Shown: one piece after another, positions 1-50,550 of the stretch
Layout: each line of letters starts with the position of its first letter
Numbering within the stretch: position 1 is the stretch's first letter
The notes under the pieces: model-generated
Databases searched by the model: none
Told to the model about the DNA's origin: nothing
What the model saw: the letters and a program-made list of their open reading frames with translations, nothing else
Assembly: GCA_030272155.1 (NCBI GenBank)
Contig: CP126197.1
Location: 1,116,001 to 1,180,000, forward strand
Direction: 5' to 3'
Length of the DNA: 64,000 nt
Origin: Tetradesmus obliquus
Lineage: Eukaryota > Chlorophyta > Chlorophyceae > Sphaeropleales > Scenedesmaceae
Position numbers and translations under genes: made by a program

Positions 1-1196
1 AGCACTGCTTGAGAAGATTGACTCGGGGCTGCGCGCGCTGCCAGCAACAGCACAGGTGGGTGGCGGCGTGCCGGCAGACCAGTTTGGCAGCGCGGCTGCT
101 AGCACATCATTGGACGCACACTGTTAGGCACTGCCGGGCAGGCAAAAGCTGCAGGCGATGATTGCGGTGGCGCAAGATGCGTGCAGTGCTGTGAGCTGGA
201 CTAAGTAGCCTGCTGCTGTGCTTCTGCTGACTGTTGAGCAGAACTCGCGCTGAGGCACATGTGTCCTGCCCTGACCAACTGCTGCTGTTGTCGCTGCTGC
301 AGGTTGCCAAGCAGCAGGGCGAGTACCTAGCAGAGGTGCTGAAGCGTGGCAGCTTTGACCAGCAGGCGAAGGTGCTGCAGCCAAACGAGAAGCAGGCGCC
401 ATTCAAGTGAGTGAATGGGGATAAATGTTGCTGGGGCAACATGAGGCACATCTGCGCCTTTGCCTTTGCAGCAGACACAGCAACTACGCCTCAGCAAAGT
501 TCAGACAGGGGCGATGCGTCGTCTGGCACATAGTAGATATGTGTTCCCTGTGTGCTGCAGCCTTGCGCATCAAACAAGACATGTACAGTACATGCATGTG
601 CTGCATGTGCCCTGCCTGCGCGCTCAACCCCGGCTCTGAACCCTGTACCCTTTGCACCCTGCTTGAACCTTAAACACATACTCCACCCGCAGGTACAACC
701 ACAAGGGCTCGCTGGCGTATGTGGCAATGCATTGGCGCTCAACCATGTGACTGAACCTTTCACACTTGCGCTTTGCCTGAACCATAAGGTCATACCATCC
801 AGGACCCACATGCAACTCTCCTCTCAGTAATAATCCTTTAACCTCAAAAGCTCATACCCACCGCCACCACCAAGCCCTGCAGGTACAACCACAAGACCTC
901 GCTGCCATACGCGGGCCCTGCTTGAACCCAAAACCCTGAACCCTGCACCGCCTGCACCCTGCTTGAACCCTTATAAAACTCCCCGCAGGTACAACCACAA
1001 AGGCTCTCTGGCGTATGTTGGTGGTGACCAGGCCGTGATGGACATCCCAAAAGTGGGCCCTATCTTTGGCACAGGGGCTGGCATCATGTGGAAGGGCTAT
1101 GAGACCTTTGCGCAGATCAGCCTGCGCAACCAGCTGCTGGTCATCAGTGACTGGGTGCGCACCAAGCTCTTCGGGCGCGACATCTCGCGCGTGTAA
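1..1196 (+). CDS. Type II NAD(P)H:quinone oxidoreductase, 3' end (partial)
   Basis: Seen: three exons, 2-55, 303-406 and 989-1196, joined by GT-AG introns with phases 0 and 2 that close in frame and end at TAA 1194-1196. The gene enters from the left edge, so only about 120 C-terminal residues are present. The last exon carries the pattern HKGSLAYVGGDQAV, then GIMWKGYETFAQISLRNQ, and ends in WVRTKLFGRDIS-RV. Known: the KGSLAYVG segment, an aromatic-rich membrane-contact stretch and a terminal LFGRDISR are typical of plant and algal alternative NADH dehydrogenases (NDA/NDB/NDC), flavoproteins that pass electrons from NAD(P)H to quinone without pumping protons, in mitochondria or plastids. Inference: which subtype and organelle cannot be told without the N terminus. 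Odd: two extra partial copies of the exon-3 start lie in the preceding intron (693-722, 883-912), and a copy of the coding end follows the stop (1243-1290). Confidence 0.85.
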
Positions 1197-1242
1197 GAGG
1201 CTTGTGTGTGAGTGGCTTGCAGCAGGCTGCAGCAGCGGTGAA

Positions 1243-1290
1243 GGCTGGGTGTGCACCAAACTCTTTGGGCGCGACATCTCGCGCGTGTGA
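1243..1290 (+). repeat. Copy of the NDH2 coding end after the stop
   Basis: This stretch repeats the last codons of the dehydrogenase, again encoding a CTKLFGRDISRV end followed by TGA, about 95 bases after the true stop. The intervening text is also partly duplicated. It lies in the presumed 3' UTR, so it is not coding in the simple model. Confidence 0.8.
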
Positions 1291-3724
1291 GCGGCGTGTC
1301 TGTAACGGGCTGGGCTGTGAGGGGTTTGCCACAGGCTGACTGCAGCAGCAGTCTGGCGACGCGTCGGGGCCTGGCAGCAGCTGAGAGGGAGGTTGTGGAA
1401 GCTGAGAGGGGTTGACCAGCGTGCCTGCACAGCTGGGGTGCGCTCCTGTGCATCATGAGGGGCCGGCTGCATGTTTGGTGTGATGTGGCGATAAGGAGAA
1501 GCAGAGCGGAGTGCTGCAACACAGTGCAATTGCATTGTTGCAGCAAGCAACCTCTGCCTGCTGGCTGCTTAGCGTGGCCGGCACGGGTTACAGCGATTGA
1601 TCGTGCTGAGTGGTTCATCTCTGCGGCAAAGGTTTTGCAGGACGGGGCGGACCAGGTTTGCACCCTGCAAAGTTGGCTCGCCAGCATGTTACTTCCCTTC
1701 TCATGATGATGTGTTTACTGTGCTTGATCACTGCACACCGTGCATGGTGCTTGGTGGGTTTGGAGCTGACCTGATTTGGTTTGGGGGCATGCCTTACCAC
1801 AACAGATCTAACAAACAATGTGCCGGCAGCTGGCGGTGCCAACTGGCACAGCTCTGCTTCATGAGAGCCGGCAACAACATATCCTTTGGCTTGCTGTCCC
1901 TGCCTAGTAGCTGCAGGGTTAGCGTGATGTGGAGTGGCTGTACACACATATCGTGCAACAAAGGAGTGCGCAGATGCATGCTTGGGCATGCCACATGTGT
2001 GTCTGCATGCTGGGACATGTTCTGTGCTGCGTTGTGTGGCTGTGCCGGCACTCACAAGGTCACTGCATGGAGAGCTGCTCTGAGTGAAGCCTGAGCATGG
2101 CTGTTACCTGTTGTGTAGGGGGCGACACAAATTTGAATGTCAAACATGTCAAACATTAGACCTGGGTTCGAGTGGCACGGCTGCAGAACTACGCTGCTGG
2201 CCTCCATGTGGTTCTAATAGGCGTTCGACACCCTGCACCTGCTGTCGGCAGCACAGCTGCTGCAATGCAGCTGCTGGCTTCTGTGGCGGCTGTTTGATGC
2301 GGGTGACAGCTGGCACGCCTTGCAGCAGCAGCAAAGTGTGGAAGCTGGGCAGCAGCTCCCGCATGTGCTGTTGTTATGGTGGGTTCTAAAACCCACGTGT
2401 ATGTGGGGATTGGGCATGGGATCAGGCAGCTGTAGCGACAGGAGCCAAACAGATAATACACAAGCAGTGATATCACATTGGGATTCAGCCTGATGGGAGA
2501 GTTCAGCTGTTAGTGATAGTAACATTTTCCTCAACGAGCATTTGCTTGGCACTTTCGTATGCACTCAGTACATTACAGGCTGTGATGCACGCGCTGCAGA
2601 TGTTTCACATATTGTGTGGTTAGCAGCCTGTTGTGGGTGCACATCCTGTGACACACAACTTGCACATCCTGCTTTGTAATAATAATAGTCTTCTTGTAAG
2701 CCATACCTTGTCATCGGCAACCGCGCCCCGTACGGAGCGGAAACTACGACTATTGCATTATGCCTCTCTATCCTGCTTTGTAACACGGTTTGATAACTGC
2801 TTGTGGGCTGGCAGCAGGGAGTTGGGTGCTACGGTGCTACGCTGTGCACAGGAAGGTCTAGAGAGATCTGCACCTCAGCATCGTACCATGACAGTGCACT
2901 GCACGTGCTGCTGCAAGTTGCTGCTTACATGCACTTGAATTCATTTCTCGGCCACAAGATGCAAGCCTGCTGGTGAGTCTGGCCGCACGTCAGCGGCAGG
3001 CTGCTGCCGCCGTATTGCAGTACATTTGAGCGCCTTTCTATGGTGCAGGACATCAAAGTATGTTACAACATCAATACCGGCAGTCAAGGGGGCGACCCTG
3101 CCAGGCAGTGCCTGTGCAAGCGGGAGACGCATACAGACAAGGGTCAGCACTGACTCTGGCTGGCTGTGATCATGATATCATATCATATGCAGTGCATGGC
3201 GTGCAGCTGCCGCTGCCTTGCAAAGCATTAATGAAATGCTGCAGCAACGCTGCATGCCAAGGCTTGCAGTCAACAGCCGCAAGCACAACATGCAACAGCT
3301 GCTGCTGTGACTGATCAGGCGGTCCCTGCGCTGCGCACGCTGGCTTGCTGCCCAACGTTTCCCACCGGCCATGTGCAACAGCTGCTTGTACTGCACAGCC
3401 CGAAACCAAAGTGCCATGCACACGCAGCCCTGCTGCTGCAATCAGCAGCTGCAGGTGCCCAACATACATAGCCAGTGGCAACTGCTGCACAATCTTTGCT
3501 GCTATATGTCTGCAGTCACATGCGTGACGCAGCTGACAGCCGTTACTTGCCCAGCACTGCTGCACAGCAGCTGCCACTGTATACATCAAGTGCCGCAGGG
3601 GCACAACAACAAACAACCCTGCTCAACAATGCAAAATGACAAATTCTAGACAAAGCCAGTGACAAAGCCAAGCCAATGCGCTGCTGCCGCTTCCACTCCT
3701 ACACTACATGCAAATTACCACAGA
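1291..3724. other. No gene recognised
   Basis: Open frames of up to about 165 codons occur on both strands but show no recognisable domain, no consistent splice structure and Cys/His-rich composition typical of random translation of this TGC/GCA-rich DNA. I take this as the 3' flank of the dehydrogenase and the region downstream of HISN5, which points towards it. Confidence 0.5.
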
Positions 3725-3900
3725 CTACTGCTGCGTCAGCACGCCCTTGCTGGCCATCGCGCCCCGCCACTACTCTTTTACGGAAATTGCCACTCTGCTG
3801 CTGGTGCTGGTGCTGCTGCTGCTGTTGCTGCTGCCTACTGCTGCGTCAGCACGCCCTTGCTGCTGGCGACCTGGTCCCGCCGCCGCTCATCATACTCAGT
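3725..3900 (-). repeat. Two extra copies of the HISN5 coding end
   Basis: The last ~65 bases of HISN5 (3943-4008 on the forward text) are repeated at 3836-3900 almost exactly, and less well at 3725-3770. Each copy contains the shared forward text ACTGCTGCGTCAGCACGCCC. CTG tracts separate the copies. They lie downstream of the stop codon on the minus strand, so they fall in the 3' UTR or flank. Confidence 0.85.
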
Positions 3901-3944
3901 GGCGCGCCGCAATCCGCTGCTGCTGCTGCCGCCGTCGTTGCCGT

Positions 3945-4781
3945 CTACTGCTGCGTCAGCACGCCCTTGCTGCTGGCCACTTGCCCGCGCCGCCGCTCAT
4001 CATACTCAGTCGCCCTCCGCAGCGCGCGCGCAAAGGCCTTGAAGGTCGCCTCCACGATGTGGTGGCTGTTCTTTCCTGCAAGCTGGCGTATGTGCAGCGT
4101 GGTGCCGCTTGTGTTGGCAAAAGACATGAAGAAGTGCTCCACCAGCTCTGTGTCAAAACTGCCAATCTTCTGGCTAGGGATGGTGAGGTCACAGCTGAGA
4201 TGTGCACGGCCAGACAGGTCCAGCACAACATGGGTGAGGGCCTCATCTAAAGGAGCGCTGAACTCGCCAAAGCGGTGAATGCCTTTGCGGTCCCCTAGGG
4301 CTTGGGAGAAGGCGCTGCCGAAAGCTAGGGCGATGTCCTCTACTGTGTGGTGGTCATCGATCCAGGTGTCTCCCTGGGCGTTGACGTAGACGTCGAACAG
4401 CCCGTGAGAGGCGATTTGGTCCAGCATGTGGTTCAGAAAGCCTACTGGGCTGTTGGCGATGCACTGACCAGTGCCATCCAGGTTGACCCGCACTTCTACA
4501 CTGGTCTCCTTCGTTGAGCGCTTCACGACTGCAACGCGGGGTCCGGATACTTCTGGGAGCTCCACGAGCGGGTTCTGCGCGTGCTGCATGCTGCTGGCAC
4601 CGTTGTTGCTGACTGATGGAGCTGCTGCTGCTGGGGCAGCAGCACCTGCTGCTGCAGCTGCCACTGAGGTCCGGCTAGAGATAGCGCGCGCGGGTACAAA
4701 GTGCTTAGAGATACAAAGGGGCCTGTGGCAGCCAGTAGTGCTGCAGCTGCCTGCTGAACGCTGCAACAGCGAGGTGTGCAT
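3945..4781 (-). CDS. HISN5: Imidazoleglycerol-phosphate dehydratase, plastid precursor
   Basis: Intronless 278-codon gene. The enzyme dehydrates imidazole-glycerol phosphate to imidazole-acetol phosphate, step six/seven of histidine synthesis, with Mn2+ as cofactor, in the plastid in plants and green algae. Seen: an N-terminal ~75 residues rich in Ser, Arg and Ala (transit-peptide-like, with an Ala/Pro linker), then a complete catalytic core. This has [18 protein letters not shown] near 88-105, [16 protein letters not shown] at 115-130, the metal-binding [14 protein letters not shown] at 142-155, [20 protein letters not shown] at 173-192, and the second metal motif [17 protein letters not shown] at 239-255. 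Both His clusters are intact. Length fits a ~200-residue enzyme plus leader. The first ATG is used because it gives the transit-like leader. The gene is divergent with 5264-7446. Its last codons are duplicated downstream. Confidence 0.97.
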
Positions 4782-5263: not shown

Positions 5264-7446
5264 ATGGCAGCAGACCCGCTAGCGAACTCTGGGCACTTCT
5301 TTGGCATGACGTGAGTGGCGCAACACGCAAGCAGCTGAATTCTGCAGGCTTGGAGTCGTGCAGTAGTAGTGGCGATGCTGTGCTGACCAGATGATGTCCG
5401 CAGGCAGCTCTGCAGAGATGCCAATTCTTGACACACAACACATTGGCTGAAAAATAGGAGCAAACTGCATGTAGAGGCAGCTGTCAGGTGCAGCCATGGA
5501 CTGCAGAAAGTTCAGTACCAGGCAGTAATTGCCACAGTCAGTGACTGCTCACTGTACTTCGCATGTCATCATGATTGAGCAGCACTGCAAAAAAAGCTTT
5601 CGAGCAGCGCGCTGGCGGCCGCGGAAAAGCAACACTCGTCCTGGACAACGACTGAATGTGCCCCGTGCTGTGCTGATGTCTTTGTTGCCTACTTGCAGCA
5701 CGCTTGGCGCCACAGACCCGTTCTTTGATGCGGCGTCCACCACCCCCCAGTACCCTTTCCATTACATTCCAGAAGAGGCTTACATGGAGGCAAGCTACTT
5801 GCACTGTCAGCCTGAACATCGTATTTTCAGCTGCCAGCAGCTTGGCAGGCCATCTGGCGTTGCGTGCAAGCTGCGCGAACACTGGACGGCGCTGCAATGG
5901 CACAACACCTTCAGCTGCTTCCTGCAATGCTGCCATGGCAGCTGCTCAATTGTTGTCAGCAGCGACATGTTACACGAGCATCTGCCAGCAGCTCACCCAA
6001 CAGCAGTTGCCCACCAGGATGTCTGCAGAGCAAGCACAACAAACCAACCGCCTCCTGCTGCTACTGCTGCTGCTGCTGCTGCTGGTGCTGTGCTATGCAG
6101 GTGTTTGAGTGCCACAAGCTGGGCGCCAGCAGCAGCATCGCAGCCACGCTGGAGGTGGATGGCGACAGCAGCGTGCTGCGCGGCAAGCTGGGGGAGATGC
6201 TCAACGACCTGCTGGGCCGGCAGGCAGTCAAGGTGGAGCTGCAGGTGCGGCACGTGCAGCTGCCTGTGTGTGCTTGCACAGCAGTGTGTCCTGCAGGAGT
6301 GGAACCACTGCACCTGAGAAGGCTGGGTGACTGAGCAGCAGCACCAGGGCACAAGGTGTGTGGGCGCTTGTTCTGACAGAGGCTGCAAGTTGAGCACCTC
6401 TGCAAATGCTGGCTGGTGCAAACAGCTCCAATCTCCTTACCACATGGTGCCGTGCGGTGTTTGCGCTGCGTGGTTTTATGCCCTGCAGGCCTGGTTCGCC
6501 TTCCTGTCGTACGACCGCGGCTGCATCATGTGCCGCGAGGAGTACTGCCAGGCGGTCAACTAGCATCCCAGGCATGGGCCACACCCTTAACTCACCTGCT
6601 GCCGGCTGCTGTCAAGCGTGATCCGCAGGCCTGGTTTACGTTCCCGACAAGATGCTCTTATGATGGGCATTATTCCCCACCTCACCCTCCTGTTGTGCTG
6701 TTTGTTGTGATTGCTGGGTGGCCTGTGCCCTGCAGGCCTGGTTCACCTTCCTGTCGTATGACCGCGGCTGCATCATGTGCCGCGAGGAGTACTGCCAGGC
6801 GGTGCAGCTGCTGCGGCAGTTCTCGGCGCACCCCCAAAAGGCGCGGCAGTACAGCAGCTACGACCACTGGCGGGCGGACCACCTGCAGCATAGGCGTGTG
6901 GAGTGGAACCCGCAGACGTCGCTGCAGGAGCCCATCACAGCATCACAGCAGGTGCGGGGCATGCACAGAGTAGTAGTGCCCTGTATGTTGCCTGTAACAG
7001 GCTGTAGCCAAGTGAAAACAGAACCCGCAGACGTCGCTGCAGGCGCCCATCACAGCATCACAGCAGGTGCGCTGTTGCCACTGTTTTGTGACATGTTGCG
7101 TGAAGGGTGGAGTTTGCGCAAGGCGGTTGTCACAGGACAGGCAGCACTGCTGCACAGTGCGCCCCTACTTGGCATGAAAGCCTTGTCTGTAAGGAAGGTA
7201 TTTGTAAGCAGGCGGCACACATGATATGTGATCGGCAACCCTGCATGTGCCTCCAGTATCTCCTGCGACGTCGTATTTGTGTCCCTGCTGTTGCTGCCGC
7301 TGCTGCTGCTGCTGCAGGTGGGCTGGCATGCGGCCAAGCCGCACATGGAGCCTGTGGAGAAGCGCTTCCCGCTGTCACACACCGACGTCACCAAGAAGGA
7401 GGGCCGCAACGCAGCCACGTACTACGGCTACATGACGCTGCTGTGA
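5264..7446 (+). CDS. Uncharacterised 208-residue protein, five exons
   Basis: Exons 5264-5310, 5699-5789, 6101-6244, 6736-6951 and 7318-7446; phases 2, 0, 0, 0; total 627 bases ending TGA. I do not recognise the family. The protein starts MAADPLANSGHFFGMT; the middle holds CIMCREEYCQAV and an HW-rich stretch (SYDHWRADHLQHRRVEW), and the end is Lys/Tyr-rich (KKEGRNAATYYGYMTLL). Short W-G-W/T-S-type motifs and the absence of signal peptide or membrane segments would fit a small soluble structural protein; some axonemal microtubule inner proteins look like this, but that is only a guess. Intron 2 uses a GC donor (GAG|GCAAGC at 5790). The exon-4 start is duplicated upstream with an in-frame stop (6481-6563), and its end is duplicated in the next intron (7021-7074). 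Exon 2 is the least certain. Confidence 0.7.
6481..6563 (+). repeat. Pseudo-exon copy of exon 4 of the 5264 gene
   Basis: This repeats the acceptor and the first ~75 bases of exon 4 (6736 onward) nearly base for base, encoding AWFAFLSYDRGCIMCREEYC, but then reads Asn and TAG. If spliced in, it would truncate the protein. It lies in intron 3. Confidence 0.85.
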
Positions 7447-9760: not shown

Positions 9761-10080
9761 GCATTGCACAGCCCAGCACTAGCTGAACGCCCAGCACCAG
9801 CCGGCCGCCCTGCATGGCACAGCACTGCTGGCAATGTTTGTGAGCTAACCTTTCATGCAGTGGCCTCTACGTGCATGTAACACAGCGGTAGGCTGTCCAG
9901 CACTAGCTGAGCGTCCCGCATGGCACAGCGCTCCTGGCGGTAAATGCTCATCATGATCACATGCAGTAGCCTCCACGTGCACGTCACACAGCGGCAGGCT
10001 GTCAAGCACGAGCCACGCACCCAACACTAGCCAACCGCTGCAAGGCCCAGCACTGTTGGCTGCGTAATCAAATGCACCTC
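9760..10080 (-). repeat. Tandem copies of the F-box/LRR coding end (~100-bp unit)
   Basis: The last codons of the F-box/LRR gene (encoding LDSLPLCDVHVEATA and stop, 10081-10133) are repeated at about 9957-10014 and 9853-9905, with a further degenerate unit near 9760. Units also share CAGCACTAGC-type spacers. They lie beyond the stop in the 3' flank. Confidence 0.8.
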
Positions 10081-13000
10081 TCATGCAGTGGCCTCCACGT
10101 GCACATCGCACAGCGGCAGGCTGTCCAGCACCGCGTACGCGCCCCAGCGCTCCATCTGCGCATGCAGCCACGTGGGGATCGCCAGCGCCACCAGCCCTTT
10201 GAGCTTTGCAAGCGCCCCCATGTCTGGCATAAGCTCCAGCACATCCCCGACATGCCAGCGCAGCAGCCGCAGCTGCTTCAGGGTGGTCAGCCCTAATAGT
10301 CCTCCATGGCTCAGGCCTAGATTGCCAATGCCCAGCACGCTCAGGCTGGTGAGGCACCTCAGGCTTGAGCCTGAGGCTGAGGCTGTCAGGCCTGGTCCTG
10401 AAGCCAGTGCTGCAGCAGAGCTGCTGGTGGCACCTGCTGCAGCTGCAGCAGGAGCAGTGCTGTGGAGGCCCGGTGCTGCAGCAGCAGCAGCCAGCAGGGC
10501 GTCGTTGAGCTGGCTGTGGTGCATGTTGGCAAGCTCCAGCTGCTGCAGGTGCTGCAGCTGGCGCAGCAGCACCACCAGCGGCTGCTGCTGCAGCATGCTG
10601 CTGCTGTAGCTAGGTGCGCTGCTGCCGGCGGACGAGGGGCCTGGTGTGCGTGCTGCTGCTGCTGTTGGGGAGGGCAGCGCGGCCTGTGAGAGGCTGGGGT
10701 CCCAGCAGCGCTGCAGCCAGCAGTGCGAGAGGCTGAGGCTGGTCAACGCATCACTGCAGCAGCAAGCAACATGGCAAAGGACAGGGTTGAGCAAGTTGTG
10801 AAGTAAGGAGTACGATATGTGTGCGACCATGATTGCTGCTGTGACAACCACAGCTGTTTCCAGGAGTAGGTGTTCAAACCAGCTGCATCGCAAGTGAACG
10901 GCTGCGCAAGGAAGCGCTCTCCATGGCAGCTGCAGCTGCTGCACTGAAGCCACGCTCACTCACCGGAATGGCACATAGTAAGGCACCTGCAGGGTGCATC
11001 CTGTGAGCTGCAGCTGCTGCAGCCCTTCTGGCATCTGCTCCAGCTTCAAAGTAACTGTTACATCTTGCAGGAAAGTAGGGCTGGCGCTGCCGCCGCTGGC
11101 TGCTACGGCTGCCACTGCAGCTGTAGAGGGGGCGACCTGCAGGCACAGGCTGGTGAGTGCTGTCAGCTGGCGCATGTCCCAGCAGGTGTCTGCGACTGCT
11201 GCAGGGGTGAGCTGGCTCAGCTGCAGGCTCTGCAGAGCTGGCCAGGCCTGCAGCAGACCTGACACGTCCCTAGTGCTTGAAGGCACCTGTGTGATGCAGC
11301 AATTGCAGGAAATGTGGCAGGCAATTAGCACCACAGGGTGTAGGCTGCGGAAGAATACGTGTCTCATGACAAGATAGGGTGAGTTGGCAGGCCTGAGACG
11401 TCCCTGGTGCATGAAGGCGCCTGTGCAAGGCAGCAATTGCAGGAGATGTGGCAGGCAGTCAGCACCACAGGGTGTAGGCTGTGGAAAAATACGTGTCTCA
11501 TGACAAGATAGGGTGGGTTGGCAGGCCTGAGATGTCCCTGGTGCTTGAAGGCACCTGTGCGGTGCAGCAGACGCAGAACATGTTGCGAATAGTTAGCGTC
11601 CACAGAGTCAGGGTGCAAAGAACTGTATGTGTCGTTTCAGCATGAGCACCAGCAAGCCGGCAGCAGTGCGGATGCAACTTCGCTGCACCCAGTTTGCGGC
11701 AGCGCAGCAATGCCTGTCAGGCGGCAGGAGCTGCTGCCACATGCCAGCAGATGCAACTCAATATCACTGTTGTTGCATAGCTAATGCTGTCCTGCAACCC
11801 AGCGACAAGCATCGCTCACCTTCTGCTGCTTCTTGCCGCGCTTGCCGCCGCAGCTGTGCCGCCTGCTGCTGCCCCTGTTGCTGCCGCCGCCCTCCTGCTG
11901 CTCCACCGTGAACTTCACCTGCAGCTGGGGGTCATGCGGGAACTGCATCGTGAACTTCACCATGTGCTTCAGCTGCGCCAGCACACTTAAATCAATCTGC
12001 ACGCCGCTCCATTGGTCTGCTTTGGTCTGCAGCAGCTGCAGCGATGTGAGCCCAGTCAGGGAGGCAATGCTGGCTAGTGCTGCCTTGCACCAGGTGAAGC
12101 CGCCGCCAAGTGTGAGGCCCCTCAGGCTGTGCTTCAGCTTTGGGCTGAGGCCTGAGAGGTGGCTGTTGATGCTGGACATCCTGTGCACCACGATTGCGGT
12201 GCTGGAGTTGTGCAGGCTGCAGGAGCAGCACACAGAATGGCAGCAGCGGTGTACACAGCAGCGGGTGAGCTATGCCTGGAAGAGCACATGCGTAGACACT
12301 GAGCTAGCAGAATCACTTGCACACGCTGTGAGGCCACCACAACAGGGAGAGCGGCATGGGTGTTGGCACTTGCTACCGCATCATCTTGACTTGAGTCGCA
12401 TTGCTCGCACTTGCACCCAACTACAACCACCCACCCGAGGTCCATCTGCTCTACAGCCTCCAGCTCCTGCAGCTCCTCAGGCCAGCCAGTGGCTGCGCTG
12501 ACCGCCACAGTCACAGCCAGCCGCCGCAGCCGCCGCAGCTGCCCCAGCTTGCCCAGCAGCGGCGGGCTGGCCACTCCATGCAGCACCAGGCTGCTCAGGC
12601 CCTTGAGCTTTGTGATGTGCTTGAAAGCAGCTGCTGAGATGGCTGAGTCCAGCTCCAGGGTGAGGCTTTCGAGGCCTGTGAGCTTGCAGAGCTGCTCCAG
12701 CTGCTCCTGGGTGAGGCAGGAGGGGCCGCTGGTGTGGTAAGGCAGCTGCAGCAGGCGGGAAGCAGCCAGGGAAATCAGAAACAAATGCTTAGCGTCATGA
12801 AGTTGCCTTTGGAGGTGTGTGTGGGTTGAATGAGCTGGTGTGGTAGGGCAGCTACAGGGCAGCAGGCAGGGCACATGAAATCGGAATATCTGGTTGCGTG
12901 TGGTTACCTTGGAGATCTGTGGTTTTTGTAGGGTTCTCACAAAGCAGAAGGTGGCCTGAGCAGCTGTGCTTAAGCGATCACTGTAGGTGGTGTGATGGGC

Positions 13001-14950: not shown

Positions 14951-17900
14951 ATGACGGGATCACTCAAGGACCAGGGGAACGAATTGTTCAAGCAGGGTGA
15001 TTACTTGAAGGCAGCTGCTGTGTATACGAAAGCCATAAAAGAGGCCCCTAGTGCAGTGCTTTACAGGTGCGTGGCATAGGCTAGAAGCAAGCACGGCTGA
15101 AGCAGTTCATTCAAATCTTGACCAGCCCGCTCATCACTCAACTGCTTGATCCCAGCACGTGTTGCAGCAAGCATGGCTTACTCAGCGTCAACTTGCTCAA
15201 AGTTTCAAGCCTACTGATTTGCTGGCTCTGTCCCCTCAGCCTTGCTTGCTTCTCTCATGCCTGAGGTGTTGAAGCAGCAGTGCACGCATTCAGGCTGGCT
15301 GTTGCGCACATGCTTGGGGTGATCATGTTCCCTCGCATGCGCTTGTCGTCTGGCGTCAACCGTAATCATCTTCTCAATCGCCTCCTTCTGCAACTTTGTC
15401 CGGCTAGTACCCCTGCCCACGGCCCAACTCTGTTACCTGACTTGTTGCTGCAGCAACCGCTCAGCGGCGCTGCTGAAGCTCAACAAGGTTGCCAAGGCGC
15501 TTGCAGATGCGGAGGAGTGCGTGAAGCTGGACCCTGCCTTTCACAAGGGCTACATGCGCATGGCGCTGGCACTGGAGAGCCAGCAGAGGCTGGAGGAGGT
15601 GGGGACTCCTGTGGCTTTGTAACCCTGAGATGGGCGTGAGGATGCAACTGCCCCTGGCTATCTGCCTCGATTTGTGCATGTTTGCTGCACTGGCGCTGGT
15701 GCTGGAGAGCCAGCAGCGGCTGGAGGAGGTGAGGACTCCTGTGGCTTTTTAACCCTCAAATGGGCGCAAACATGCAATTGCTTGTTGATGTATGCGTTGA
15801 ACGTGCATGCAAGGGCAAAGCTGTGTATGATATGTGCTGTGCTGACGTGCGGGAATGCAAAAGTGTATCGAGCCAGGATGCAGGGCCGGCATGTAGGCAG
15901 CAGCTGCTGAGTGCTTCCTTCATTACTGTGCTGTAGTGCGCACTAAGGCACCGTCAGCTGCCACTGTCGTTGTGGTATTGCTTGGTCACCTCCTCTTCCT
16001 GGTTGGTTGACCATCGTGCTGCTGTTGGTTGCTGTTGTTGTCCAATTGGCCTTGCAGGCGGTGGACTGTTACCGCAAGGCAATGCAGGCAGATAACAACA
16101 ACTCGGAGTATGCAGCAAGGGCCAAAGCGCTCAGCAAGGCCTTGGGCAAGAAAGTGCAGATTGAAAAAGCCCAGGTAGGCAATAAAGCATCTGCACAGCC
16201 GCTGATGCAGCATTGGTGCGAGCAGTTGTCAAGCTCTAAGCAGCGGCGACGTTTCAATGTGTTTCCTCAGCATGCAACAGCATCATGCCAGCAGCGAGGC
16301 TAAGTGCTGCCCCGATCACATGCACGGCTGCTGCTGGTGGCTGCAGTCGCAGCGCTCACCTGCTGAGACTGCAGCGCTACATTCTTACAGCATGCAACAA
16401 CATCATGCCGGCAGCAAAATGCAACTCCGATCACATGCACGGCTGCTGCTGCTGCTGCTGCTGGTGCTGGCTGCAGTCGCGGCGCTCACCTGCTGAGACT
16501 GCAGCGCTAGCTTTTCATAGCATGCAACAACATCATGCCGGCAGCGAAATATAACTCCGATCACATGCACTGCTGCTGCACCTGCTGCTGCTGCTGCTGC
16601 TGCTGCCTGCAGTCGCGGCGCTCACCCGCTGAGACTGCAGCGCTAGCTTTTGCGGAGTCCAAGCTGGCCTATGCAGCAGAACTGGCCAAAGAACAGGGGC
16701 GCAGCTTTGCACCTGAGCTGTTCTTCCTGCAAGGTACGGCAAGGCTGCAGCTGCAGCATGGCACAACTGTAAGCAGCAGCCTTGCATGTTGGTGCTACAG
16801 CCTGTTCTGTTTTTCCTGCAAGTTACGGCTGCAGCGGCGGCATGGCACGGCTGCCAGCAGCAGCCTTGCATGTTGGTGCTGCAGCCTGTTCTGTTCTTCC
16901 TGTAAGTTACGGCTGCAGCGGCGGCATGGCACGGCTGTCAGCAGCAGCCTTGCATGCTGGTGCTGCAGGCCATGCCGCCTGAGGGGCCCCTGCACACATC
17001 TGCGCTCACGTGATGTGCATGTGCTTCACCTCGCAGTTCGTCTTGCCAGCTGCTCATGCTGTTGCCCACTGCCACCTGCTGAGCCTGTCGTCATGCGTGC
17101 GTTCCTGCTTGTGCATGTCTGCAGGTCGCAGCAGCAGCGGCGGCGGCGGCAGCAGTAGCAGCAGCAGCAGCAGCCAAGACGACAGCGACGAAGTAGCAGT
17201 GCGGGCAGAGCATGCCTTTGCAGCGCCAGAAGTGCTGGCGCAGTTTGTGCAGCAGATGCGTAGTAAAGCAGAGGAGTTGCACGCGACAGCAGTGCTGCTG
17301 ATAGCGCCCAAGGCAGAAGTGCAGTTCCCGCAGGTGCGTGTGTGATGTGCAGCGCCAGTGGGTCTCTAGCTTACTTGCTTGAGGGTGCTTTGATTGCAGA
17401 TCACCCAGGCAAGCATAGAGTGCAGTGCCTTGGTTCCGTCAAGGCAGCAGCGCTGGACACATCGCAGCAGAAGGAGCCGCAGCAGCAATTGCTGAGCCAC
17501 AAGTGTGTCGTACAGCGTCCTGTTTCTGTGTCATGTGTAAGGCAATATGCTCTTGCCGTCAAAGCTCGCCCTTATGTCGCCTGCGCTCACTGCTGCTGTA
17601 TGTGTTTTGTGTTCTGCTGCCATATGCAGACCTGGCGCAGTGCGGGGTGGCCTTTTGGACAGCACGATGGCGTGTTTGTGCAGCTACACGCATCACTGAA
17701 GCAGGCAATAGACAGCAGCAGCAGCAGCGGCCCAGACCAGCAGGCGCAGGATGCGGCAGCTGGTGGGCGCAGCAGCGAAGGCGTGCTGCGCAAGCTGTGG
17801 TTCATCAAGTTCCGGGAAAACAAGCCTCCTGTGTGAGTGCAGCTGTTGGTGTTCCTGCTAAACCCTAAACACCCAAAACCCTAAACCCCTATACCCTAAA

Positions 17901-18622
17901 GCCTCCTGTGTGAGTGCAGCTGCCAAACACAAACATAATCGCTTTGTGGGGTTAGCTGTCCTGCACTGTGCTATATCATCACTGCTGTAGCGCATTGCAG
18001 CTGCTGCTGGCCACGTGTTTGCGACTGGTGTGCTGCTGGTGGGACGCAGGGCAGCAGCTGCGCAATGTCAGCCAGCAGGGCAGAGCAGCTACTCTAGTGT
18101 GACATATGTGACAGCAGCAGCAGCAGCCGCAGCAGCAGCAGCAGAGCCTGCATGTGGTGCTGAGAGCCTCGCAGTGTGCAGCTGGGCACCTCGCACGTTG
18201 GCCTTGCGCAGCGCTGCAGCTGCCACCTTGCCCAAAGCTGCCAGCTTGCCAGGTAGCCCGCAGCCAGTGCAGTTGTGGCAGTGCTGAGCCAACACCCATC
18301 GCCCGATGGCTGATGCGACAGCACATGCTGCTCCTCGGTTTGATCATGTCCAGGTGCTGTTGCATTGCATCTGGCTGGCGGTATGCTGTGCATGTTGCTT
18401 TATATGCTGCTGTGCTGTGTTGTCGTGTGCCTGCCTGGAGCTGCAGGTGATATGATGATGATGGTGATGAAGGTGCTGTTGCATGGTGTCTGGCTGACGG
18501 TGTGCCTATTTCTTCTGCACATACTGCACATACTGATGCTGTGTATGCTGCTGTGTTCTGCCTGCAGGGAGCCGCAGGAGGTCAGCCAGGAGTTTGAGCT
18601 GCTGCCCCCGCTGCTGCGGTGA
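14951..18622 (+). CDS. TPR protein, co-chaperone-like
   Basis: Exons 14951-15066, 15454-15598, 16058-16174, 16613-16733, 17125-17333, 17630-17832 and 18568-18622; frames agree throughout (966 bases, 321 residues). An alternative model simply reads through the exon-6 donor to TGA at 17834-17836 (304 residues). Residues ~4-105 are three tetratricopeptide repeats: SLKDQGNELFKQGDYLKAAAVYTKAI, then SNRSAALLKLNKVAKALADAEECVKLDP, then a third with AVDCYRKAMQADNNN. Known: this arrangement resembles STI1/HOP/SGT-type TPR domains that bind chaperone C termini. The second half, with a Gly/Ser run, KAEELHATAVLLIAPKAEVQF and a WPFGQHDGVFVQLHASLKQAI segment, is not one I can name. Cytosolic by absence of targeting signals. 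Exon-2, exon-4 and exon-6 edges are all duplicated in neighbouring introns. Confidence 0.8.
16265..16980 (+). repeat. Tandem copies of both edges of TPR exon 4
   Basis: Upstream, a ~130-bp unit (CATGCAACAACATCATGCC ... CTGCAG plus exon-4 start CGCTCACCTGCTGAGACTG) occurs three times at about 16265-16395, 16396-16525 and 16526-16650; the last joins the real exon. Downstream, a ~90-bp unit built on the exon-4 end plus donor (TTCTTCCTGCAAG followed by GT-bearing text) is repeated about three times between 16721 and 16980. Confidence 0.85.
17858..17900 (+). repeat. Interstitial telomere-like repeats
   Basis: Three exact CCCTAAA heptamers (17863-17869, 17879-17885, 17894-17900) in a degenerate array. 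They sit between the end of TPR exon 6 with its donor (17819-17843) and a duplicate of that junction (17898-17924). Confidence 0.75.
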
Positions 18623-20829: not shown

Positions 20830-21230
20830 CTACTCTGCCAGGTTGCGGTCGATGGCCCTGGCAACCGCCCTGCCCAGCACGTCATATCCAAACTCAGTAA
20901 GGTGCAGGCCATCATCCAGCCACCTGCTGCGCTCCGCATCGTCCATGTTGTAAAAGTCCATAGTGGTGGCCTGCAGGACGCGGCAGAAAGGTACACGATG
21001 ATGAAGACATGGAATTGTTGTGATGTGTATCAACAGCCGAAAGAGCAGCTTGGTAGGGCAGAGGGCTGACAGGTCACAGCTGAGGCAGGTTGCGGGGCAG
21101 CATCTGTGGCCGGTGCCATGCACAGGCCGGGGAGCCTTGTTCACTGCATACGGTATGCTGCTGCTGCTGCCGTCGCCGCGAGTATAAGTTGCAAACCTGC
21201 GCACCTGCAGGTTTAGCACGGCCACCTTGG

Positions 21231-21290
<60 letters not shown>

Positions 21291-22494
21291 AGACAGTAAT
21301 GGTTGTTATGTGTGCGCACCTGCAGGTTTAGCACGGCCACCTTGGGGCTGCTGCTGCTGCTGCTGCTGCTGCTGCAGACAGTAATGGTTGTTATGTGTGC
21401 GCACCTGCAGGTTGAGCACTGCCACCTTGGGGCTGCTGGCGCGCCTGCTGTTCTCGCCTGCTGCCATGCCGCGCACCATGTCGGCCAGCTTCTTGCGCTC
21501 ACCCTCCTTGTAGTCATCCCTGCGGCAGCAGCAGCAGCAGCAGCAAATGTGAGGTGACTGGCAGGGTGGCTCTAGCGAGCGGGATGAGGATGATTGTGTG
21601 CATGGCTGCAGTGGCCAGCTGCACCAGTTACGCCTTTTCGTTGCTTGCACGCACCCGCCGGATCCACTGTCAGTGACACAACCCCACAGCATGCAGTGCA
21701 CCTGCTCAGCATCTGTACGGCCGCTGCGGCCAACATCACCCCACTCACTTTGACACGAAGCCAGGCGCGCCAAAAGGAGGAATTGCAATTACATTTGAGC
21801 CTGCATCCAGCGCCCAGCCGTAGATCTGCTGCAGGCCTCCCTTCACTTCCTCTGCTGATTTGCCCATGCGCAGCAGGTCATTGATGCCCAGCATGACGAT
21901 GACATAATCATAAGGTGTACCGTGGCGCTTGGCACGCTGAATGGCTCGCTCCGCTACTGGGGGGATGGTGGTCTGCTTGTGGAAACCCACTGCAAAGATG
22001 CCGGCACCGCCCACGCCTGCAGATGTTACGTGGCAAGTTTTGAGGTATGAGGGGCCGCTAGTGGAACGGCCGGCAGGCAGTGTGTCGGCACAGATTGGTG
22101 TATGGGGGCTATTCAAGTGCTGATTGCTGGAGATACTGCGTGCAGGTGCCTGAGAGCTGAGCATCATCATAACGTCTCATGCGCAATGCAAGCGTGCTAT
22201 GACGTACTTTAGACCAATTCGGGCAGCTGCCAGGGGTGCAGCTTCCTCACCTTCGTTGTCTATGGTGATGCGAGCGTTCGGCCGCAGCTTGCGCAGCTGC
22301 TGCTCCAGCTGGATTGTGTACGGGTGGTTTGTGTTTTTGCTTGGGACTGAACCCTCAGTGATCGAGTCGCCAATCGCCAGGATGCGAATGTCGGTGTCCT
22401 GCCGCAGGAGCCTGGCAGCATCTACTGCCCAGCTGCTGCAGAGGAGCGCGAACAGCACGGCTGCCGTGTACGCTGCTGCTGTTTTGTTCGCCAT
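20830..22494 (-). CDS. Secreted SGNH/GDSL-family hydrolase (paralogue A)
   Basis: Four exons, 22494-22251, 22016-21749, 21519-21405 and 20970-20830; phases 1, 2, 0; 255 residues. The start at 22494 places a signal peptide (MANKTAAAYTAAVLFALL, then a cleavage-like AVDA) at the front; an upstream in-frame ATG at 22566 would bury it. Catalytic blocks are complete: ILAIGDSITEG with the nucleophile Ser44, the oxyanion Gly in the GVGGAG stretch (82-87), VMLGINDLL with Asn127, and WLDDGLHLT with Asp229 and His232. Known: SGNH hydrolases remove acyl or acetyl groups from lipids or cell-wall polysaccharides; these blocks resemble the short microbial/algal type rather than the long plant GDSL lipases. 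Inference: an extracellular or vacuolar esterase; substrate unknown. The exon-3 end is triplicated in intron 3 together with long CTG runs. Confidence 0.9.
21195..21405 (-). repeat. CAG-linked copies of the SGNH-A exon-3 end
   Basis: The exon-3 end with its donor (CCCCAAGGTGGCAGTGCTC...CTGCAG|GTGCGC in sense) recurs twice in intron 3, around 21308-21347 and 21195-21232. Each copy is preceded in sense by a CAG run: two units in the exon itself, about nine at 21348-21375 and about nineteen at 21233-21290. CAG expansion thus sits at each copy boundary. Confidence 0.9.
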
Positions 22495-29810: not shown

Positions 29811-30420
29811 ACGCAGCACTCTGCTGCTGCTACACGTGCAAGCCCCTTGGATGTCATGTGCTGGTGGTTGTCACTGCCAGATGTGGCTTGAGCGCAGCAC
29901 TGTGCTGCTACACGTGCAAGCCCCTTGGCTGTCATGCGTAGGTGGTCAGCATAACGGTTATCACCGCTAGCTGTGGCTTGAGCGCAGCACCACTCTGCTG
30001 CTTCACGTGCAAGCCCCTTGGCTGTTATGTGCTGGTGGTTGTGCCTGCCAGCTGCGGCGTGAGCGCAGCACTGTGCTGCTACACCTGCGAGCCCCTTGGA
30101 TGTCATGTGCTGGTGGTTGTGCCTGCTAGCTGTGGCGTGAGCGCAGCACTCTGCTGCTACATGTGCAAGCAGCTTGGCTGTCATGTGCTGGTGGTTATCA
30201 CTGCTAGCTGTGGCGTGAGTGCAGCACTCTGCTGCAACACCTGCAGGCCCCTTGGCTGTCATGCGTAGGTGGTCAGCATAACCGTTACCACCGCTGGCTG
30301 TGGCGTGAGTGCAGCACGCCGCTGTTACACGTGCAAGCAGCTTGGCTGTCATGTGCTGGTGGTCGCCCCTGCTAGCTGTGGCGTGAGCGCATGAGCTCCA
30401 CTGTTACACGTGCAAGCCAC
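29803..30420 (+). repeat. 3'-flank tandem array after GILT copy 2
   Basis: About seven units of roughly 80-105 bases, each built on GCAGCACTCTGCTGCTACAC, then GTGCAAGCCCCTTGGCTGTC and a ATGTGCTGGTGGTTG segment. The first unit overlaps the stop codon of the gene. Some units carry an extra block (GGTGGTCAGCATAACGGTTA) near 29941 and 30268. Confidence 0.9.
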
Positions 30421-36150: not shown

Positions 36151-39100
36151 GTCAATGGCAGGCACATCTGCTGCCGTGCTACTGGCAGGCACATCAAGTG
36201 TTGTTGCTGCTGCTGCTGCTGCCGCACTGGCAGGTACTTCAGAAATCTGTGTTGCTGCTGCTACTGCTGCTACTGCTGCTGTGTCACTAGCAGGCCCATT
36301 GGCTGCTGCTGCTGCTGCTGCTGGTGGTGGTGCGAAGCCGCTGACATAGTCTACTGATCCAGATGCATCCCATGCATGATTGATGAATGGTAGATTTGGA
36401 CGGTTGATGGGTGCATGCGCCAATGTGTGGTTGGATCCGCCATGATGCATATGTCAGGACGCCCAAGCAATGCCAGATGTGTTTTGCGTTGCATGTAGGG
36501 CGAGCGATGGCACGTGTGCGCATGCCGTGGCGTGTGCAGTGCAGTGCAGTGCAGGCAGCATGAGGCAGCATTGTGTGGATGATACAGGAGTGGTGCATTT
36601 TGCAAGCATGCAACATTGCAATGGTGATCTCACTGCTGTTGTGCTTGCACATGTGGCAGGCAGCATGAGGCAGCATGGTGTGGATGATACAAGAGTGACT
36701 CTTTGCAGATACAGCAATGTACAACTACTTGATGTTGTGCACGCATGCCGTAGCGTGTGCAGTGCAGTGCAGTGCAGGCAGCATGAGGCAGCATTGTGTG
36801 GATGATACAGCAGTGGCACACTGCAAACACAGCAATGTTCAACAACTACTTGATATTGTGCACGCATGCTGTGGCAGGTGCAGTGCGGCGCAGGCAGCAT
36901 GAGGCAGCCTGGTGTGGATGATACAGGAGAGGTGCATTCTGCATGCAGCATTGCAATGGTGATCTCACTGATGATGTGCAGTGCGGTGCAGGCAGCATGA
37001 GGCAGCATGGTGTGGATGATACAGGAGTGACACATTGCAAAAACAGCAGTGTTCAACTACTTGATGCTGTGCATGCATGCCGTAGCGGGTGCAGCGCAGC
37101 GTGCAGGCAGCATGAGGCAGCATGGTGTGCATGATACAGAGTGACACATTGCGCGAGTGCAGCAGTGCAATGGTTGACCAATCAAACATTTATGCAGTGC
37201 ACAGGTGGTTGCAATGCTCCCCTGCCTGCAGCTGCTGTAGCAAGTATGGGAATGCACACACTGCAGTGCACTCTGCAACAATTTTCTCTGTGACAGCGTT
37301 CTTACCCTCTGTGCGTTTTTCAATGCCCCTCCAAAAACTACCACAATCCCCCAAACCACCACCAGCCCTACCTCCCCATGCCCAGCTGCAGCCACCCTGC
37401 GCCAACCAAACATCACCAAACATTACCAAACTACCAAACATTACCTGCTGAAGTGGCTCCATGTGTCAGTGCACATTTGCAACGCATCTGCCCCTCCAAA
37501 TCCTCCATGATCCACCACCTGCCCTACACCTATGTATGCTAATCCTGTGCCAACCAAACATTACCTGCTGAAGTGGCTCCATTCTCCGAGTTGCCAGCTG
37601 GCAGCGTCTGACTTTTAAAGGCACAGCTCTGCTTAGCCACGCCATCATATCCCCACAGCCGGCCGTGACTGTCTGGCAATGCATTGCTGTCTGTCAGCTG
37701 GTAGGGGCAGTCTTTAGCAGCATCCCAAGATATGGTGCCAGCTGCAGCTGCTGAGGCGTCCTTGAAAGTGCAGCTCTGTTTTGTTGCGCCGTCAAAACCC
37801 CAAGGGCGGCCGAGTTTGTCGAGGTTTACGTTGGCTGCGGTTTTGGGGTAGCTGCAGGTTGGGCTGGTGTTCCAAGAGTCAAAGTCCTTTGACTTGGCCG
37901 TTGCCTCCGCCTCGGCATCTGCAGAGACAGCACATAGGCGAGGTACATGATTGCACACTTATGGACACAGACGTACTCAGCTCGCATCAAAAGCACAGGC
38001 GAATGAGCGGAGGCTGTGACACCGCCAAACCATCAGCAGGTGCCTGCAACAACATTGACAGTTAACATCGCCTGCAAGGAAAACAGCTCTGCTAAAACTG
38101 GCTGCGTCTCGAGCACTTTTCTGAAACAGCAAGCATCAGCAAGCAGCAGGAACCTGAGCTCACCGTTTGCTGCAGAAGACTTTGTTAGCGCTGCAGGTCC
38201 AGCAGCTGTATGCGCTGCCGGTGCTGGTGGTGCACCATGATCTGCATTTGTCACCTGCTGCTCAGCTTCTGGCTGCTGCTCAAGAGGCTGCTCTGCGATT
38301 GGCTGTTCAGACACTTGCGGTTGCTGCTGCTGTTCAGTGTCAGCTGGTGCAGTGCCCTGCTCTGGGGTGGCTGGCTGCAGGAAAGCAGTGAAATCCTGTT
38401 GCCGCTGCGAAGGCTGTGCAGTAGTCTGAAAGGCAACAGCATTGGCAGCAGAGGCAGGGTACGAAAGAGAATGAAGGGTTGGTCAGACACGCACGTCAGC
38501 ATGTCAGCACGTCAGAAGAGGCTCGTCCTTGTGCAGCCCGGTGAGCAGATGGAGTGCTACGGTACGCACCGCCAGCAAAGTAGCCAGGGTTTCATTTAGG
38601 TAGTTATGCCGACCGAAACACTGTCTGCACACGTGTTTGCTGGCAGGTGCTGCTGCTGCTGCTGCTGCTGCTGGCGGAGGTTTGTCGGCTAGCTGGCCTG
38701 CAGAGACCTGGCAGTCAGCACGCAAGCAATGTATAGCCGCACACCAGTTTCTCATTCCAAATCAAACATCACACCATAAGGAACTTCTACCTTTGATGGA
38801 CCCTGCTGTGTGAACGCTGATGCTGGCACAGCAGGTGGTGTCACCAGGTGCTGTCAGGATGACACACCAGCAGCAGGTAGCACCATTACCCACCTGCCAC
38901 CAAGTGCCACTGCCGGCGTTGTACAGGGTGTATCCACCAGTAGTAGGGCCTCCGATGAACAGTTGTCGCAGATTGCGCCGCTGCGTGCGAACTGCGGTGG
39001 TCAAGAGCTTTCTGGTTCGCCGGAAGCTCCTGGCAGCGAGCTGCGTGCGAGATGATCCTATCGCTGCATGAAGCGGCACGATCGCCTGCACCGATTCTCT

Positions 39101-43207: not shown

Positions 43208-43259
<52 letters not shown>

Positions 43260-49300: not shown

Positions 49301-50008
49301 TCTTCCCGCTGCACTGACTTAGCTGTCCCTGGCTCGCTGCCTGTGCTGCTGTGCCTGCCGCCTACGTGTTTGCAGAGCACATGCACAAGTCACCTGAGCA
49401 GCTGCACACCAAGCTGGACACCTCAGCTCACGTCCCATCGCACTAAAGCAGCTGTCGCTGACTTTCTGCCTGTGCTGCTGTGCTTGTCTGCCCCTGCCTG
49501 CAGAGCACATGCACAAGCCACCAGAGCAGCTGCACACCAAGCTAGACATCCCAACGCTGCTCACTTCTAAACTGATGCAGCTGCCTCTGGCCTTCTGCCT
49601 GTGCTGTTGTTCAGAGAAGCTGCATTCGCACAGTGAATGCAAGGCTGTACACCATCTTCCAACGCTGGACCTGTTGTGCGTGCCGCCTTGGTATTTGCAG
49701 AGCACATGCCTAAGCCACCTGAGCAGCTGCAGTCCAAGCTCGACACCAAGCTATTGAGGCAGCTGCTCGAGATGGATCAGCAGCAGAAGGTCAGCGAGTT
49801 CAAGTCACGCATGCAGAAAGAGGCGGCAGCTAGCAAAGCAGATGCTGAGGCAGGCAGCAGCGACAACTGGCAGAAGCTGATGGGCTCGGCTCCTTGGCTG
49901 GAGCAGCAGCAGGGACTGGAGCAGCAGCAGCAGGGACTGGAGCAGCAGCAGCAGGGGTTGGAGCAGCAGCAGCAGCAGCAGGAGCAGCAGGAGTCTAGTA
50001 GATATTGA
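46355..50008 (+). CDS. Tim17/PRAT-like membrane protein with Gln-rich tail
   Basis: Seven exons: 46355-46486, 46827-46867, 47194-47362, 47723-47794, 48115-48202, 48848-48979, 49701-50008; phases 0, 2, 0, 0, 1, 1; 313 residues. Four short hydrophobic stretches: FAYTSANVFVSCSALAIA (~59-76), TSVLMAASATWYGVQ (~124-138), AGTLSAALLGAA (~156-167) and GMWAAVGGLAGYYGF (~177-191). RGKKDAFNACAAG at 145-157 fits the PRAT core R-x3-D-x6-[AGS]-G. Known: this family includes Tim17/22/23, the complex I subunit B14.7 and plastid OEP16/HP20 proteins. Inference: an organelle membrane protein for translocation or complex I; I cannot choose. The C-terminal ~100 residues (KHMPKPPEQLQSKLD, NWQKLMGSAPWLEQQQ, ending SSRY) are coiled-coil-like and Gln-rich, unusual for the family. 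Exon 2 has a tandem CAGCAG acceptor. Confidence 0.78.
49265..49700 (+). repeat. Extra copies of the Tim17-like exon-7 start
   Basis: GCAGAGCACATGCACAAGCC and the following CTGAGCAGCTGCACACCAAG text recur at about 49373-49440 and 49500-49560, with a shorter piece at 49265-49300, before the true exon at 49701. Each copy keeps the acceptor AG. Confidence 0.88.
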
Positions 50009-50129
50009 TGTGGTTGTAGCAGGCATGGTGGTTTGTGCGGGCCGTGTTGCAGCATCTGCACGATCCAGGCAACAAATTTATTTCATGGCACTAGCCGGCG
50101 GCAGGAGAGCAGCCTACAGTCACTCAGGC

Positions 50130-50479
50130 TGTGCCTTGTGACTGCACAACTGGCAGAAGCTGATGGGCTCGGCTCCATGGCTGGAGCAGCAGCAGGGGCT
50201 GGAGCAGCAGCAGGGGATGGAGCAGCAGCAGGAGCAAGAGGAGTCGAGCATATATTAATGTTGGTGCAGCAGACGTGCTTGTCTGCATGGGTAATATTTG
50301 GCATGTGCAGCACCCGCATGTTTTATGCGCCGAGTCTGTTGCGTAACACCAAGCCAGTGGCAGGAGAGCAGCCTACAGTAACTCAGGCTGTGTCTGCACA
50401 ACTGGCAGAAGCTGACGGGCTCGGCGCCGTGGCTGGAGCAGCAGCAGGGGCTGGAGCAGCAGCACCAGCAGCAGGGGTT

Positions 50480-50522
<43 letters not shown>

Positions 50523-50550
50523 GATGAGTCGAGTAGATATTGATGTTAGC
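50130..50550 (+). repeat. Two downstream copies of the Tim17-like coding end
   Basis: Copies at about 50140-50257 and 50397-50543 repeat the end of exon 7. Both stay open: NWQKLMGSAPWLEQQQ... ending ESSIY-stop, and NWQKLTGSAPWLEQQQ... ending ESSRY-stop. They differ in number of CAG units (the second has a run of about 14 at 50481-50521). Confidence 0.88.

Follow-up and report, generated by a model that had tools for sequence, protein, structure and literature searches.

Why do the introns of one stretch of the Tetradesmus obliquus genome carry extra copies of the edges of their own exons? The stretch in question (the window) comprises 64,000 nucleotides, C7:1116001-1180000 of an assembly of 104.66 megabases (Mb) in 17 contigs. 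The original prediction, made from these letters, listed 33 positions at which short segments spanning an acceptor plus exon start, or an exon end plus donor, were said to be repeated next to the true junction. The listed repeats proved to be real: 31 of the 33 positions fell in, or within 15 base pairs (bp) of, a local direct repeat with an expectation value (E) of 8e-5 or better, the exceptions being 11640, the end of a range, where there was no repeat, and 47444, where only E = 0.1 was reached. We propose, at a probability of about two in three, that this genome is subject to frequent local tandem duplication with a unit of about 120 bp; that copies spanning an exon edge are tolerated, lengthen introns, and then decay; and that exon edges are affected in excess of what uniform duplication would give.

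The window was analyzed together with 25 loci of 10 kilobases (kb) from all 17 contigs, making 26 sequences and 314 kb. Direct and inverted repeat pairs were counted within 1.5 kb at a strict (E <= 1e-4) and a looser (E <= 1e-3) threshold, with a single first-order shuffle of each sequence as the control. Exons came from a small self-trained gene finder, unbenchmarked and run with no annotation, which recovered recognizable proteins and at times read a decoy as an exon, hiding introns that carry copies. Weak predicted exons were omitted from most counts, with exon-score cutoffs from 10 to 25 depending on the count. One locus made up of a long array (L019) was excluded from the pair, codon-change, divergence, and unit-size counts, and pairs overlapping more than 4 to 8 others were removed from the spaced-pair, divergence, and codon counts and from the exon-anchored-to-noncoding ratios, both for the random sample and for the PF00118 loci described below. 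Elsewhere in the genome, at L039, one exon of a D1-protease-like gene was identical to PDB 1fc6 ("Photosystem II D1 protease") over all 61 of 61 aligned residues. The 1fc6 protein is that of Scenedesmus obliquus, the present T. obliquus, so the DNA very probably belongs to this species or to a very close relative. For strain UTEX393, the published genome description gives a size of 108 Mbp, a mean intron of 462 bp, and a mean spacer of 3,647 bp (PMC5966456).

Local direct duplication and its excess at exon edges

At the strict threshold, 291 direct and 10 inverted pairs were found, as against 0 in the shuffled sequences, and at least one direct pair was present in 24 of the 26 sequences; the looser search gave 502 direct and 100 inverted pairs (3 and 2 in the shuffles). 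Among 247 pairs spaced at 50 to 510 bp, 111 were spaced at 70 to 149 bp, and a second rise at 230 to 269 bp held 36. Since direct pairs dominate and spacings peak at 70 to 150 bp, duplication in this genome is local and mostly head-to-tail, with a preferred unit near 120 bp. Besides acceptors, donors, and stop codons, the repeats affected intron interiors and noncoding DNA distant from any predicted exon. That the copies arise by repeated tandem duplication, as had been suggested, was borne out by the predominance of direct pairs and by plain tandem units at two loci, namely, four units with the same exon start in L031 and a ladder of units of about 117 bp in L035. Arrays such as L031 and 56672-58081 are head-to-tail with units of about 10 to 150 bp, as in minisatellites; 14 of 165 clusters held six or more pairs, and the remaining clusters held few copies. 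An artifact of assembly is unlikely, given that identities grade from 64% to 100% and that 24 of the 26 sequences are affected. Comparison of the 26 sequences with one another gave 79 matches covering 0 to 14.5% of a sequence, and no dispersed intron family of the introner type was seen in these 314 kb of the 104.66 Mb, a sample that a rare family could escape.

At reliable exons, an outward copy accompanied 34 of 275 acceptor edges and 55 of 272 donor edges; start edges had one in 2 of 16 cases, and stop-codon edges in 6 of 19. By comparison, copies were found for 14 of 210 exon middles and for 104 of 1,577 noncoding 30-mers lying beyond 400 bp of a reliable exon; within 400 bp of one, the figure was 212 of 1,688, a count that includes the edge copies themselves. 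Per base, direct repeats covered 0.24 to 0.29 of the first 30 bp inside edges and 0.20 to 0.28 of the flanking 300 bp, compared with 0.12 to 0.18 at 45 to 120 bp inside exons and 0.163 of all noncoding DNA. With home-made gene models, then, the enrichment of copies at exon edges over exon middles and distant noncoding DNA stands, and both ends of the exon are involved, as the original prediction had held. The comparison of junctions with other sites that it called for, carried out in a reduced form on the 314 kb and nine PF00118 loci, left the enrichment in place.

The excess was also seen against two explicit nulls. In a random-placement test on 151 clusters (the 14 with six or more pairs having been removed), 62 clusters crossed an exon edge versus 34.8 +- 4.9 expected, and 55 were noncoding versus 91.6 +- 6.1 expected, at an exon score of at least 20; across exon-score cutoffs, the odds ratio of exon-anchored to noncoding clusters over random placement was 2.4 to 2.9. 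Of 18 clusters with at least 94% identity, 3 were noncoding, compared with 9.0 expected. The second null was a forward simulation of uniform 120-bp duplication with substitution, indels, deletion, selection, and perfect annotation. In the random sample, exon-anchored and noncoding pairs stood at 151:49, a ratio of 3.1 that leaves aside another 48 pairs in which each copy fell in a predicted exon, whereas uniform simulations gave ratios of 0.60 and 0.56 (53:89 and 100:179), and five settings in which introns and spacers were longer gave 0.33 to 0.39, whether gene conversion was included or not. By simulation, the excess is thus 4- to 9-fold. We read the enrichment at exon edges as real, at between 2.4- and 9-fold depending on the null.

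The same pattern was met in gene families. In a search with the Pfam profile PF00118 (CCT/Cpn60), a single gene could match overlapping parts of the profile more than once, as with positions of about 42 to 69, which were hit three times at C16:4172823-4173294; with a kinesin profile, positions of about 263 to 289 were hit four times at C2:7430665-7431399. At nine distinct PF00118 loci, 20 of 34 exons (hand-picked from the gene-finder output) carried edge copies, 50 copies in all, of which 21 were on the 5' side and 29 on the 3' side. The exon-anchored-to-noncoding count at these loci was 40:8 (5.0), as against 208:171, 427:490, and 344:425 (0.8 to 1.2) in genes-only simulations.

Within the window, the claim that nearly every multi-exon gene is affected was roughly right: 10 of 13 predicted genes had a copied edge, although just 22 of 146 edges were affected. 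The gene count becomes 9 of 12 once a partly false model (56839-63985, lying on a minisatellite) is removed. Among the 13 predicted multi-exon genes, no copied edge was found in either GILT-like gene or in the methyltransferase-like gene. Other parts of the original prediction were not supported. Copies do not always keep the AG or GT, since 43652-43681 lacks the AG and L013 591-645 fails likewise, and splice junctions as such are not the unit of copying, since edges at stop codons are copied too (6 of 19; see also HisB, 3725-4021). By the predicted exons, moreover, several of the listed repeats (11253-11586, 34951-34995, and 43652-43681) are not junction copies, and the one at 37440 lies next to an exon (37565-37918) that is not one of those of SGNH-B. 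The window features are collected in Table 1, where the names NDH2, SGNH, GILT, and Tim17 are presumptive, as are CCT subunit and methyltransferase in the text, having been assigned in the original prediction or from the look of the protein sequences.

Table 1. Repeated segments at and near predicted exons of the window
Gene	Feature	Positions	Strand	Identity and remarks
NDH2-like	acceptor plus about 30-36 bp of exon start, three copies	636-722, 876-904, 936-1018	+	84% and 90%; true exon from 989
HisB (imidazoleglycerol-phosphate dehydratase)	about 110-bp tandem copies, C-terminal codons plus stop into 3' flank	3725..4021	-	stop at about 3945 (read by eye); repeat not at splice junction
5264 gene	copy of acceptor and first 68 bp of exon	6479-6556 / 6726-6803	+	97%
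5264 gene	last 46 bp of exon with 5 bp of donor, repeated 115 bp downstream	6906..7071	+	98%; spacer unrelated
F-box/LRR	intron-only tandem array, 134 bp, 2.4 copies	11253..11586	-	begins 6 bp outside predicted exon edge 11247
F-box/LRR	acceptor edge copy	12728-12759 / 12834-12870	-	81%
TPR	exon-end copy, period 130	15561..15781	+	87%; predicted edge uncertain
TPR	acceptor array and donor array flanking exon 16613-16733	16268-16651 (acceptor), 16708-16968 (donor)	+	
TPR	exon end plus donor, 24 bp identical	17822..17922	+	many telomere-like repeats in spacer
SGNH-A	copies of exon end and donor, accompanied by (GCT)n	21156..21450	-	
GILT-like gene 1	about 3 copies of an 85-bp unit, all within the intron	25364..25618	+	paralogous intron 28504-28758 has one
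SGNH-B	exon-end copies and start copies around exon 34543-34660	34283-34334, 34424-34463 (end), 34616-34947 (start)	-	
SGNH-B	intronic copy of 45 bp from inside an exon (35231-35275)	34951-34995	-	98%; 67 bp from exon edge
Gene of predicted exon 37565-37918	copied exon end with 12 bp of donor; 30 bp identical	37433..37582	-	not an SGNH-B exon
RING-FYVE-SYLF	edge copies at three exons	42275-42628, 42865-43240, 43560-43681	-	
Tim17-like	exon-end copies and array	48148-48570, 48951-49106 (copies), 49252-49747 (array)	+	

Other repeats were observed beside these genes and elsewhere in the sample. The minisatellite at 56672-58081 has a 131-bp unit in 10.6 copies and was misread as repeated exons by the gene finder. 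An array of 78/171-bp repeats (29791-30430) lies directly downstream of the second GILT-like gene, and telomere-like repeats of the CTAAACC type (17858-17900), within an intron, separate the TPR exon end from its copy. The array at L019:1-3959 has units of about 275 bp at 95% identity, with a predicted 96-bp minus-strand exon in each, and could be a genuine gene for a repeat protein. Two contigs share a 723-bp element at 98% identity, one of them carrying it twice (L010:1096-1817; L020:1627-2349 and 5909-6631); it is perhaps mobile.

State of the copies

Most of the copies appear from their codons to be dead, with exceptions. In 132 exon-edge copies of the random sample, 605 codons had changed, 272 synonymously, 322 nonsynonymously, and 11 to a stop; the synonymous share of 45% compares with 44% expected, from the random-change spectrum, for a drifting copy paired with a constrained exon. 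Of 93 indels in the exon part of these copies, 77 shift the frame, and at the PF00118 loci 12 of 13 do so. In 54 events with the intron part aligned, divergence was 0.063, 0.049, and 0.161 at codon positions 1, 2, and 3 and 0.117 in the intron, so that the first- and second-position rate is about half the intron rate, as expected when one of the two partners drifts. Frame and coding sequence were not both kept, as they should be in alternative exons, among the 132 random-sample copies; the exception is a gene in L029, presumptively that for CCT-delta. Here one exon end occurs six times (719-1797), and the sequences after the donors match only partly, two being identical. The gene finder cut the exon at 1586-1797 short at its 3' end, and part of the L029 "intron" is actually coding. 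The extra copies look as if they were still coding, though the gene should need one.

Pairs that are spaced apart and still highly alike form a class of their own. Among spaced pairs with at least 85% identity, 55 were exon anchored, 24 had both copies in predicted exons, and 13 were noncoding, some of these being CAG tracts. Likeness often ended 5 to 8 bp into the intron, 3 to 5 bp before the acceptor, or at the stop codon (as in L026 5193-5246 / 5340-5393). Simple constraint and decay as the cause of such near-identical pairs was ruled out by their unrelated spacers, and copying and pasting into introns was put aside, given that many of these pairs are spaced in the common 110- to 125-bp mode. 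Because many have this common spacing, we infer that these pairs, too, are tandem units and that exchange with the exon has preserved the similarity of their exon parts. In simulations, conversion yielded 0 pairs of at least 93% identity with an edge near a junction when absent and 1, 2, and 8 as it rose. A divergent haplotype is a possible source of those copies that differ only silently.

Origin of the excess at exon edges

Under the reading that we favor, the genome would undergo frequent local direct duplication, preferentially of units some 120 bp long. A duplication across one exon boundary would leave one boundary intact and hence would probably be tolerated; the spare exon edge would stay in the intron, lengthen it, and decay. 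A duplication inside an exon would alter the protein and would seldom be kept, and exon middles did carry few copies. The excess at edges may be due in part to a bias in birth toward exon edges or transcribed DNA and in part to later exchange between exon and copies, which would keep some copies alike while their spacers drift. Fill-in repair of staggered breaks is, by analogy, a candidate source of the duplications.

Several results weigh against this reading. With regard to the excess, the ratio of 151:49 rests on a lenient exon cutoff (score of at least 10), which inflates it relative to the perfect annotation of the simulation, and pairs within one array are not independent. Acceptor edges (0.124) are not enriched relative to near-exon noncoding DNA (0.126, with copies included), and still-adjacent pairs with at least 93% identity are few and balanced (3:3 in the random sample and 1:0 at the PF00118 loci). 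Pairs inside predicted exons, which should be depleted because selection should remove them, are not clearly so (7 versus 7.2 expected at E <= 1e-3; 11 versus 7.3 at 0.01 and 1 versus 5.9 at 1e-5), and simulated conversion does not raise the exon-anchored ratio (0.36 to 0.39). With regard to decay, codons with a single difference (128 events) show 268 synonymous, 227 nonsynonymous, and 7 stop changes, or 53% silent versus 44% expected. Differences also fall mainly on third positions, as the counts for codon positions 1, 2, and 3 show for pairs with at least 93% identity (2, 5, and 23), for the PF00118 copies (37, 40, and 164), and for the five extra copies of L029 (0, 1, and 39). Exon divergence hardly changes from events of low to events of high intron divergence, contrary to a simple clock. 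Of the 20 spaced pairs with at least 93% identity, 13 ceased to be alike less than about 15 bp from the junction, as did 17 of 37 at 85 to 93%; the spacers of near-identical spaced pairs were unrelated, although in 4 of 20 the flank on the intron side retained some similarity.

One alternative, which we regard as possible and hold tentatively, is that duplication is aimed at the boundaries. Some process of breakage or replication in phase with the exons, for instance breaks tied to transcription, splicing, or exon-phased nucleosomes, would copy about 120 bp centered near a boundary; introns would grow inward and carry fossils of former edges, some of them still exchanging with the exon. The ratio of exon-anchored to noncoding pairs is flat across identity classes (18:5, 49:14, and 84:30), which points to birth rather than survival, and the excess is already present at 94% identity and above. 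The exon part of single units is also narrower, at 26 to 80 bp (10th to 90th percentile; median, 47; n = 45), than the 19 to 110 bp (median, 58; n = 431) of the uniform simulation, and copies are more frequent near reliable exons (0.126, copies included) than farther away (0.066). However, the difference in exon-part size is weak (Kolmogorov-Smirnov P = 0.04; Mann-Whitney P = 0.07) and depends on home-made gene models, stop codons are also affected, so that splicing itself is not needed, and units confined to introns exist.

Duplication that is uniform and nothing more, with selection clearing the exons and with short introns and a conserved partner making edge copies seem common, is rather unlikely to account for the data. 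It would explain why acceptor edges do no better than nearby noncoding DNA and why adjacent, near-identical pairs, in which decay should not matter, are few and balanced. Yet its simulated ratios (0.33 to 0.60 with genes and spacers; 0.8 to 1.2 with genes only) fall short of the real values of 3.1 and 5.0, its simulated edge rates fall below the noncoding rates, and the real ratio does not climb with divergence.

It is improbable, judging from codon changes, that selection maintains the copies as functional alternative exons or exon ends. The 39 third-position differences and 1 other in the five exon-end copies of L029 would suit this explanation, as would the silent excess in single-difference codons and in pairs with at least 93% identity and the reading of several copies by the gene finder as in-frame mini-exons. 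The codon changes of the random sample nevertheless fit dead copies, 77 of 93 indels shift the frame, and two start copies in L031 differ mostly at third positions (0, 0, and 6; 0, 2, and 5) while apparently lacking a usable donor. It is implausible, besides, that an essential chaperonin should carry a conserved segment several times over. Creation of introns by tandem duplication of an exon segment containing AGGT (the Rogers model), a recognized route (PMC3443670, PMC4974935, PMC2891723), is very improbable here: the two flanks of one intron resemble each other very slightly more than flanks taken from separate introns do (means of 12.48 versus 11.92 of 46), but donor and acceptor flanks were not found to be copies in the AG-GT register among 178 introns, just 1 of which reached 24 of 46, and the copies sit inside introns that already possess both ends.

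Intron growth and relation to known duplications

The claim that the copies lengthen introns was supported. Introns with an edge copy had a median length of 375 bp (8 introns) compared with 192 bp (170 introns; P = 3e-4). The 8 of 178 introns between two reliable exons that contain an edge copy are probably an underestimate, because the gene finder took some decoys for exons. The paralogs agree: the tandem GILT-like (thiol reductase) genes at 24153-26777 and 27535-29777 share intron positions, and the intron with the multiplied 85-bp unit measures 462 bp compared with 255 bp in its counterpart, by the predicted flanking exons. Since the position is shared and the unit multiplied in one paralog, the intron is older than the duplication in the single pair that could be checked, which also speaks against the AGGT route.

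The phenomenon is internal gene duplication at a seemingly unusual density, in a genome with a strong habit of tandem duplication. Internal gene duplication, as Gao and Lynch reportedly described it in 2009, consists of partial duplications within genes that copy pieces of exon and intron, and in the alga, too, two copies of a gene segment lie in one gene, direct and local. The density in the alga, however, looks far higher (20 of 34 exons at the PF00118 loci), with a narrow unit of about 120 bp and with many segments copied several times. The segment duplicated is of the same kind as in known tandem duplications across an intron-exon boundary, but in the one checkable case in the alga no new intron resulted; an intron already in place lengthens, and the copy for the most part decays. 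In mammalian cells with engineered breaks, filling in of staggered ends is described as giving small direct duplications (PMC8355091); they resemble those of the alga in being small and direct, with no link to exon edges in the part of that paper available. For Drosophila, a study of intron sliding and exon duplication proposes tandem exon duplication as a source of new intron positions (PMC2891723), in a handful of old cases without surviving sequence likeness, unlike the copies in the alga. Among the matches listed in the open-license literature, there was no account of exon-edge copying in Tetradesmus or other green algae.

If the pattern holds genome-wide, T. obliquus would offer a natural laboratory for the gain of intron length, with many introns carrying datable copies of their own exon edges. 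It would also allow tests of whether duplication is biased toward exon edges and of how spliceosomes tell the true edge from near-identical decoys lying only some hundred bases off. For gene prediction the pattern is a warning, as programs applied to such genomes may call decoy exons, as the gene finder did here.

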